Below, piece by piece: positions 30,277 to 31,608 of a stretch of 33,456 nucleotides of DNA; position 1 is the first letter of the stretch, and the number at the start of each line of letters is the position of its first letter. The stretch is taken from assembly GCA_012838745.1 (NCBI GenBank), contig DUOS01000164.1, positions 1-33,456 on the forward strand, in the 5' to 3' direction. The position numbers and the translations under genes are program-made. The notes beneath the pieces are model-generated. The model did no database searches. It was not told the DNA's origin and saw nothing but the letters and a program-made list of their open reading frames with translations. This DNA comes from Treponema sp. (GTDB lineage Bacteria; Spirochaetota; Spirochaetia; Treponematales; Treponemataceae).

Positions 30277-31380
30277 CTATTCCATTTGCATAGGCATAAC
30301 AATATGAAAGAAATCTCGAGCTGGTTCGGTCCTAAGTGTTATAGCTTTCATTGGTTCTGTAAATTCAAAACTTACTCGATCAGAGCCAATAACCTTCAAA
30401 GGTTCCTCAATGTACAGGTAGTTTAAAGCTATTGTAATTTCTTCACCATCATAACGGCACGGTATTTCTTCTCTAGCAGTTCCTATTTCAGTTTCTTGAG
30501 AACTAATAGTTAAAGCTCCCGGTGCTATTTTCATATAAATTCTTCGAGATTTTTGTTCAACAAGCAATCCAACACGTTTTAACGCTTCAATAATATCCTT
30601 TGTATCAACTTCAAAGGAATATTCTTGGCTATCTGGAATAACACGGCTGTAATTAGGAAATGGTCCTTCTATGAGAATTGAAGAAAATTCGTAGTTCCCA
30701 AAACGGAAAAAGATGTTTTTTTCTCCAACAGCTATTGATATAGGACCTTCATCATGGGCTCGACGATTAATAAGGGTAAGAATTTTAGGAGGAATTATAA
30801 TACCTTTAAAGTCAGGAATATTAATTCCAAATTCTTTAGAGATATAAGCTAATCGTCTTCCGTCAGTAGCTACTAACTGTAGTTTAGCTTCTACTTTTTC
30901 CATGAAAACACCATTCATAAAATACCGTGTTTCATCATCTGAAACAGAAAAAACTGTTTGATTAATCATTTCACGAAATTCTTTTACAGGAATATCAAAA
31001 AAAACTAAATCTTCTGGAGCTGTAAATTCTGGATATTTATCACTCGATATACTTTTTAATTCAAAACGGGCTTTCTTTGTTGCAGGTCGAATAAAAATCT
31101 TTACGTCTTTTTGTTCAAATTCAATTTCTCCTGAAGGTAGTGAAGAGAGAATACTCATGAATTTATCACAAAAAACAGTAGTCGAACCATTTTCAATAAC
31201 ATCTACAGGAATACGAGTTTCAAAATTAACTTTAATATCAGTTGCCTTAATAGTTAAGGAACCATTCTCTGCAGCTAGTAAAACATTTGAAAGAATTGAT
31301 ATAGCATTTTTAGTTGCTATTATTTCCTGAGCTATGGAAATTTCTTTTAAAAGAGCATCTCTGTCAAAACTGAATTTCAT
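30277..31380 (-). CDS. dnaN: DNA polymerase III sliding clamp (beta)
   Basis: The 367-aa protein forms the ring-shaped dimer that holds DNA polymerase III on DNA. Three similar domains are visible: MKFSFDRDALLKEISIAQEIIATKNAISILSNVLL at the start, the middle YFMNGVFMEKVEAKLQLVATDGRRLA, and the C-terminal EEITIALNYLYIEEPLKVI, ending in FHIVMPMQME, the usual terminal pattern. GGAGG lies 4 bases before the ATG. It is 228 bp downstream of dnaA, the gap holding the origin. Confidence 0.98.
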   Translation of the reverse strand: MKFSFDRDALLKEISIAQEIIATKNAISILSNVLLAAENGSLTIKATDIKVNFETRIPVDVIENGSTTVFCDKFMSILSSLPSGEIEFEQKDVKIFIRPATKKARFELKSISSDKYPEFTAPEDLVFFDIPVKEFREMINQTVFSVSDDETRYFMNGVFMEKVEAKLQLVATDGRRLAYISKEFGINIPDFKGIIIPPKILTLINRRAHDEGPISIAVGEKNIFFRFGNYEFSSILIEGPFPNYSRVIPDSQEYSFEVDTKDIIEALKRVGLLVEQKSRRIYMKIAPGALTISSQETEIGTAREEIPCRYDGEEITIALNYLYIEEPLKVIGSDRVSFEFTEPMKAITLRTEPARDFFHIVMPMQME

Positions 31381-31422
31381 ATATCCTCCACATCTTTCTA
31401 TTTATACTAATATATATATATA

Positions 31423-31453
31423 TAGTAATAGTAGTAATAGGGCCTGTTGAAAC
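31423..31453 (+). other. DnaA-trio-like unwinding element
   Basis: TAG TAA TAG TAG TAA TAG (31423-31440) is followed by GGCC (31441-31444) and TGTTGAAAC (31445-31453), a divergent DnaA box in the reverse orientation. Read 3' to 5' from the box this gives box, GC-rich step, GAT/AAT repeats, then an AT tract, as described for the basal unwinding system of B. subtilis. Confidence 0.6.
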
Positions 31454-31526
31454 AAGCAAAAGTCATATTTCTCTTTACCCTATAATGAATTAACTTGTTA
31501 ACAACTTCATCTTTTAGCTAACACAG

Positions 31527-31535
31527 TTATCCACA
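31527..31535 (+). other. DnaA box, consensus
   Basis: TTATCCACA, identical to the consensus. The overlapping ATATCAACA at 31535-31543 shares its last base. Confidence 0.85.
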
Positions 31536-31564
31536 TATCAACAGGCACCCGCTTTTCCTAAAAT

Positions 31565-31573
31565 CTATCCACA
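31565..31573 (+). other. DnaA box, one mismatch
   Basis: CTATCCACA differs from TTATCCACA only in the first base. A further weak match, CTATCAACA, follows at 31587-31595. Confidence 0.65.
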
Positions 31574-31608
31574 GCATAGTAACATACTATCAACAGATAA
31601 CAAACAAT

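Follow-up and report, generated by a model that had tools for sequence, protein, structure and literature searches.

The window, that is, the whole stretch of DNA analysed, comprises 33,456 nucleotides of contig DUOS01000164.1 from a Treponema sp. assembly (GCA_012838745.1). The region of concern here is the gap between dnaA and dnaN (31381-31608; Table 1). Both genes lie on the minus strand, and their row is continued by recF and then a DciA-type gene. This dciA (helicase operator, PF05258; 28725-29201) follows recF directly, so that a helicase-loading gene and an origin-opening gene belong to one gene row.

Table 1. Features of the dnaA-dnaN region of the window. Box scores are matches to TTATCCACA and offsets are counted from the start of the trios.
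Feature	Position	Strand	Remarks
dnaN, beta clamp	30277-31380	-	keeps the trio element in genera with dnaA elsewhere
(AT)n tract, directly past the trios	31410-31422		A/T-dominated past the trios in relatives as well
Six DnaA-trios in register	31423-31440	+	TAG TAA TAG TAG TAA TAG
GC step GGCC, separating the first trio from the near box	31441-31444		C at -2 and at -1: 58% each in 96 anchored relatives
Near (proximal) box site GTTTCAACA	31445-31453	-	6/9; offset -13
Site of the second near box, as a rule the stronger one	31453-31461	-	decayed, TTTTGCTTG; 4/9; offset -21
Perfect DnaA box TTATCCACA	31527-31535	+	9/9; offset -95; points away from the trios
DnaA box	31535-31543	+	7/9; offset -103; in tandem with the 31527-31535 box at 8-bp spacing
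DnaA box CTATCCACA	31565-31573	+	8/9; offset -133
DnaA box	31587-31595	+	7/9; offset -155
dnaA, 462 aa	31609-32997	-	putative trio-binding residues E195, N199, V202, I205, K214, K234, E240

In the sense of the genes, on the minus strand, the end of the gap reads GTTTCAACA-GGCC-CTA TTA CTA CTA TTA CTA-(TA)n or, with more of its surroundings, CTTTTGCTTGTTTCAACA GGCC CTA TTA CTA CTA TTA CTA TATATATA. The plus strand is TGTTGAAAC at the near box site, and at 31423-31440, when read 3' to 5', it is 3'-GAT AAT GAT GAT AAT GAT-5', which is the DnaA-trio consensus 3'-(G/A)AT-5'. A DnaA-trio element is a run of three or more trinucleotides 3'-NAN-5' that keep phase on a single strand, with consensus 3'-GAT-5'; all six units here are GAT or AAT, and their strand and orientation are those expected from Bacillus subtilis. 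A sequence-only reading of the window had described six in-register TAG/TAA units between a (TA)n run and GGCC, with a divergent DnaA-box-like nonamer in reverse orientation adjoining the GGCC, and had taken the whole for a DnaA-trio unwinding element in a spirochaete origin. The description is correct to the base throughout. The setting is indeed a dnaA-dnaN gap with a cluster of boxes, the order of box, GC step and trios is that of the basal unwinding system (BUS) of B. subtilis and of the relatives examined below, and the near box does diverge from TTATCCACA. That reading had passed over the four boxes nearer to dnaA, and also the decayed place at 31453-31461.

Six trios in register at this place are beyond chance. 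The pattern (YTA)6 occurs a single time in the genome of 2,197,605 bases, at the dnaA-dnaN gap, and the reversed pattern, as a control, has no match in the same genome. None of 20,000 dinucleotide shuffles of the window's gap reaches six in register, and five or more are reached in 0.175% of them.

Searches with DnaA covered 118 genomes from the same family and 198 from the phylum, together with contigs of uncultured Spirochaetales, Treponema and Spirochaeta, and yielded 128 gaps in which dnaN adjoins dnaA, thinned to 106. At least five of six YTA units stand in register in the sense of the genes in 74 of the 106 gaps (six in 41, five of six in 33). The same threshold is reached in these gaps once by the reversed pattern, three times on the other strand and never by the complement, and by 0.08% of dinucleotide shuffles. 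When the tracts are anchored on the trios, the centre is T in 92-100%, the first base a pyrimidine in about 95-100% and the third base A in 79-94%. The commonest length is six trios (52 tracts). The order of CTA and TTA units varies among species while phase, length and spacing to the box stay constant, so the check that the sequence-only reading had proposed, conservation of trio phase and of spacing to the box in relatives, has come out in its favour (74/106 gaps; box offsets -21 and -13).

Within the tract, the first base is C (hence G on the strand of the trios) more often than the background of 0.27 in trios 4 (50/74) and 6 (51/74), in line with the preference for 3'-GA-5' that has been stated for DnaA (PMC10721633). 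First-base G is therefore uneven along the tract, being concentrated (about 68%) in these two trios. A favoured replacement of the central trio A by C, as expected from PMC10721633, was looked for and rejected, losses at the centre being spread over all three bases. Some relatives amount to natural mutants, and these predict which trios are dispensable. Trio 3 is CAA or TAA in three genomes of the same genus (L003-L005) and trio 4 is TAA in most sampled genomes of genus g15, the other trios remaining in phase in both cases. A Treponema genome of 1.1 Mb (L132) keeps the tandem boxes and their spacing, and only CTA TTA precede decay of the tract; it can be regarded as a natural minimal tract with about two canonical trios left. 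That L132 and Borrelia keep the register only in part counts against reading the tract as an unwinding element. At Leptospira-like and Brachyspira-like loci no YTA tract of at least five units was found within 800 bp after dnaA, and dnaN was not recognised beside dnaA there.

The spacing between boxes and trios is also conserved. Trio-facing boxes that score 7/9 or higher start at -21 in 31 of the 74 tracts, at -13 in 16 and at -22 in 6; between -30 and 0, no such box points in the opposite direction. The distance from trios to dnaN, by comparison, ranges from 46 to 293 bp. Relatives carry TTATCC(A/G)GA at the -21 site, and in members of the window's own genus this site matches at 5-8/9 (TTATCCAGA, TTATCCGGA, TTATTAAGR or TTATTCAGG). 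In the window both near places face the trios across a short, GC-containing spacer, with the same -13/-21 spacing and GGCC as in the relatives, and the near box is best read as a degenerate copy at a conserved place rather than a new motif. The decayed -21 box of the window is known from one draft-assembly contig. Only the 6/9 site lies inside the four mismatches that Ori-Finder 2022 allows beside trios; the 4/9 site lies outside.

On the dnaA side, all four boxes of the window (one 9/9, one 8/9, two 7/9) point away from the trios. Reverse-facing boxes in the 92 tracts with at least four trios peak at -155, -133, -122, -103, -95 and -84. Each of four upstream places tested is matched within one base by between 32 and 51 of these 92 tracts, compared with about one in shuffles, and most members of the window's genus repeat the upstream offsets exactly or with a shift of one or two bases. 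Because upstream and near boxes alike sit at fixed offsets, the gap is a rigid orisome map rather than a loose set of boxes. In 21 of the 92 tracts no box scoring 7/9 or better lies 16 nt away or closer, and the trios are therefore better kept than the boxes. Box-first searches undercount origins of this kind. A BUS has been predicted in 85% of origins, in 1755 of 2070 species across the bacterial tree (Pelliciari et al. 2021, PMC8287927); this figure is probably too low, since trios outlast boxes.

Near the start of the gap, at 31565-31600, the DnaA box at 31587-31595 is followed by an extended -10-like pattern, ATATGnTAnnAT. A strict regular expression for box plus pattern matches 19 of the 106 gaps, with the window a near miss, and the combination may be a DnaA-controlled dnaN promoter.

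Two genera of Treponemataceae, g15 and g20 (L212-L217, L264-L269), separate the two genes, dnaA lying apart from dnaN in most genomes, typically by tens to hundreds of kilobases. In five split g20 genomes the sole (YTA)6 precedes dnaN by about 60 bases. Genomes of g15 likewise carry a five-of-six tract, together with its boxes, upstream of dnaN, L269 being more decayed. GC skew was sampled in 20-kb blocks in two relatives (G057 and G043). In G057 its sign changes in the interval 855-885 kb, mostly negative values giving way to mostly positive ones; the trios lie inside this interval, at 881.6 kb. Positive values still predominate across dnaA, at 1140 kb, and one block left of dnaN is positive, against a clean switch. 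G043 is noisier: its sign changes at about 1100-1120 kb, only roughly near dnaN (1167 kb), and dnaA is at 1007 kb. These data support, to a moderate degree, the trio site as the working origin. The element thus lies in a dnaA-dnaN gap with a box cluster in the window and at a skew switch beside dnaN in one relative, and the split genomes show it staying at the origin where dnaA is elsewhere.

In the DnaA protein of the window the trio-capturing residues are either kept or replaced conservatively. In a comparison with the structure of the B. subtilis BUS (chain 8btg), the residues described as contacting the trio strand correspond as E183=E195, N187=N199, I190=V202, I193=I205, R202=K214, K222=K234 and E228=E240 (B. 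subtilis first). Five of the seven, E183, N187, I193, K222 and E228, are identical, and I190V and R202K are replacements; further changes are B. subtilis E223 to N and N196 to Q. The cognate DnaA thus has the trio-capturing residues of the initiator-specific motif, and across 61 spirochaete DnaA proteins E183, N187 and E228 are invariant and R202 is always K. The box-reading signature of the helix-turn-helix is FGGRDHSTV, compared with FGGRDHTTV in B. subtilis, and with a canonical signature the window's DnaA is expected to read canonical boxes.

Taken together, the tract is very probably the unwinding half of the chromosomal origin, a BUS of the B. subtilis type, and it is almost certainly at the run of six repeats that DnaA begins to open the chromosome. 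Binding, unwinding, choice of strand and helicase loading are our inference. DnaA-ATP would occupy the dnaA-side boxes as well as the weak near site or sites (31445-31461) that face the trios, and would then pass over the GGCC step onto the plus strand. Each protomer in turn would grip two bases of a single trio, 3'-(G/A)AT-5', and the plus strand would be stretched and freed as far as the (TA)n tract, the presumed site of helicase loading; the (AT)n tract at 31410-31422 is likely to be the continuing melted DNA. With near boxes this degenerate, recruitment of DnaA in this species probably relies largely on help from the strong boxes at -95/-103 and -133.

Several other readings of the tract have to be weighed. 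One makes it part of the dnaN leader or promoter, rich in trinucleotides by accident and with no role in opening the origin. The tract does always lie upstream of dnaN, remains with dnaN where dnaA has moved, and is surrounded by A/T-rich, promoter-like DNA. However, it is the distance and orientation to the DnaA box, and not the variable distance to dnaN, that are fixed to the base. A three-base unit conserved in phase would have no meaning in a promoter, the trio consensus is matched on one strand only, and the skew of G057 switches at the trio site; a dnaN element alone is thus very unlikely. A chance run, or a microsatellite made by slippage beside the (TA)n run, could be imagined in such low-complexity surroundings, where slippage makes trinucleotide repeats. 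It has next to nothing to recommend it once (YTA)6 is seen to be unique in the genome and almost never produced by shuffles, and on these grounds it was rejected. A microsatellite is also incompatible with the conservation seen throughout the order and class, where the order of CTA and TTA changes between species but phase, length and box spacing stay.

The remaining doubts concern the near boxes. The sequence-only reading had suggested that this origin uses a different recognition sequence, TGTTGAAAC-like in the window, and the site nearest the trios is certainly far from consensus. The suggestion does not survive the presence, in the same gap, of canonical boxes at 9/9 and 8/9 and of a canonical recognition helix in DnaA, nor the TTATCC(A/G)GA of relatives at the -21 site; it was rejected, and we consider it highly improbable. 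A reading with more in its favour, though still rather unlikely, is that the near boxes of this species no longer bind DnaA, which would instead be looped in from the reverse-facing boxes at -95 to -133 while the trios alone set the opening site. It is a sub-case of the BUS reading and compatible with it. The near boxes match at only 4/9 and 6/9, 21 of the 92 tracts have no good box close by, the upstream boxes keep fixed places, and the distal boxes of B. subtilis are thought to work via a loop (PMC6669920). Against this, a near box is essential in B. subtilis even with the distal boxes present (PMC6669920), weak boxes can bind DnaA cooperatively, and close relatives keep a box of 7-8/9. We give the same modest chance to its consequence, that the near anchoring box has in effect been lost, DnaA being handed over from boxes 95-155 bp away, and that single-stranded trios rather than double-stranded boxes would define the site of opening. 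Our main view of the BUS in the window is that the weak near sites still bind DnaA cooperatively.

The fixed spacing between boxes and trios can be used as a ruler for reading divergent DnaA boxes, and in Borrelia it points to a tandem of AATTNGACA. Borrelia-like gaps (L183-L186, L219-L225, assigned to Borrelia by the position of dnaA and by family) have no TTATCCACA pair at the -21 and -13 places and carry there a tandem AATTRRACA/AATTNGACA at 8-bp spacing. The tandem AATTNRACAATTNGACA occurs once per genome in seven Borrelia-like genomes, always between dnaA and dnaN, and a control pattern for it has no match in the same seven. The recognition signature of Borrelia DnaA is altered, to GGKTHSTV, and the borrelial DnaA box was still being identified as of 2022 (PMC9879097). 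We predict AATTNGACA as a candidate Borrelia DnaA box.

The sequence-only reading had held the element to be undescribed in this lineage. A literature search found no paper joining the DnaA-trio with spirochaetes; the tables of the 2021 survey may include them, as may those of DoriC, which, like Ori-Finder, annotates trios automatically. With a BUS predicted throughout bacteria the novelty is modest; what is added is a BUS in a phylum for which the literature searched held no description, with a near base-exact map of its boxes over many species. Like the BUS modules of Pelliciari et al., the window has at least three trios in cis to a box, and the spacer of 12 bp between the -21 place and the trios is within their peak of 10-13. 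Unlike them, it falls outside the requirement for a box no more than 16 bp away with two mismatches or fewer, because its near boxes have decayed to 6/9 and 4/9. When re-coded, this rule, which is a search threshold rather than a biological definition, reports no BUS for the window's tract in the sense of the genes and picks instead a site on the other strand at the dnaN ribosome-binding sequence; it accepts 71 of the 92 relatives' tracts.

The closest parallel is the BUS of B. subtilis (incC DnaA-box#6/7 and trios; PMC6669920, PMC10721633), which shares with the window the order of tandem boxes, GC step, six trios and AT-rich DNA, the consensus 3'-(G/A)AT-5', a second, distal subregion of boxes, the location between dnaA and dnaN and the conserved trio-binding residues. 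In its cryo-EM structure seven protomers hold six trios (PMC10721633), and reversal of box 6 or of boxes 6/7 abolishes origin function (PMC6669920). The window differs in its weak near boxes, in distal boxes that all point away from the trios at fixed places, in the K and V that replace R202 and I190 of DnaA, and in a DciA encoded after recF. The origin of Clostridioides difficile differs in being bipartite, with boxes also upstream of dnaA, whereas visual inspection of the 85 bp between dnaA and gyrB in the window showed no such cluster. Its oriC2, like the window, has a tract downstream of dnaA, CACCTACTACTATTACTACTATGA, and DnaA-dependent opening has been mapped to the region of this tract with P1 nuclease (PMC7561715).
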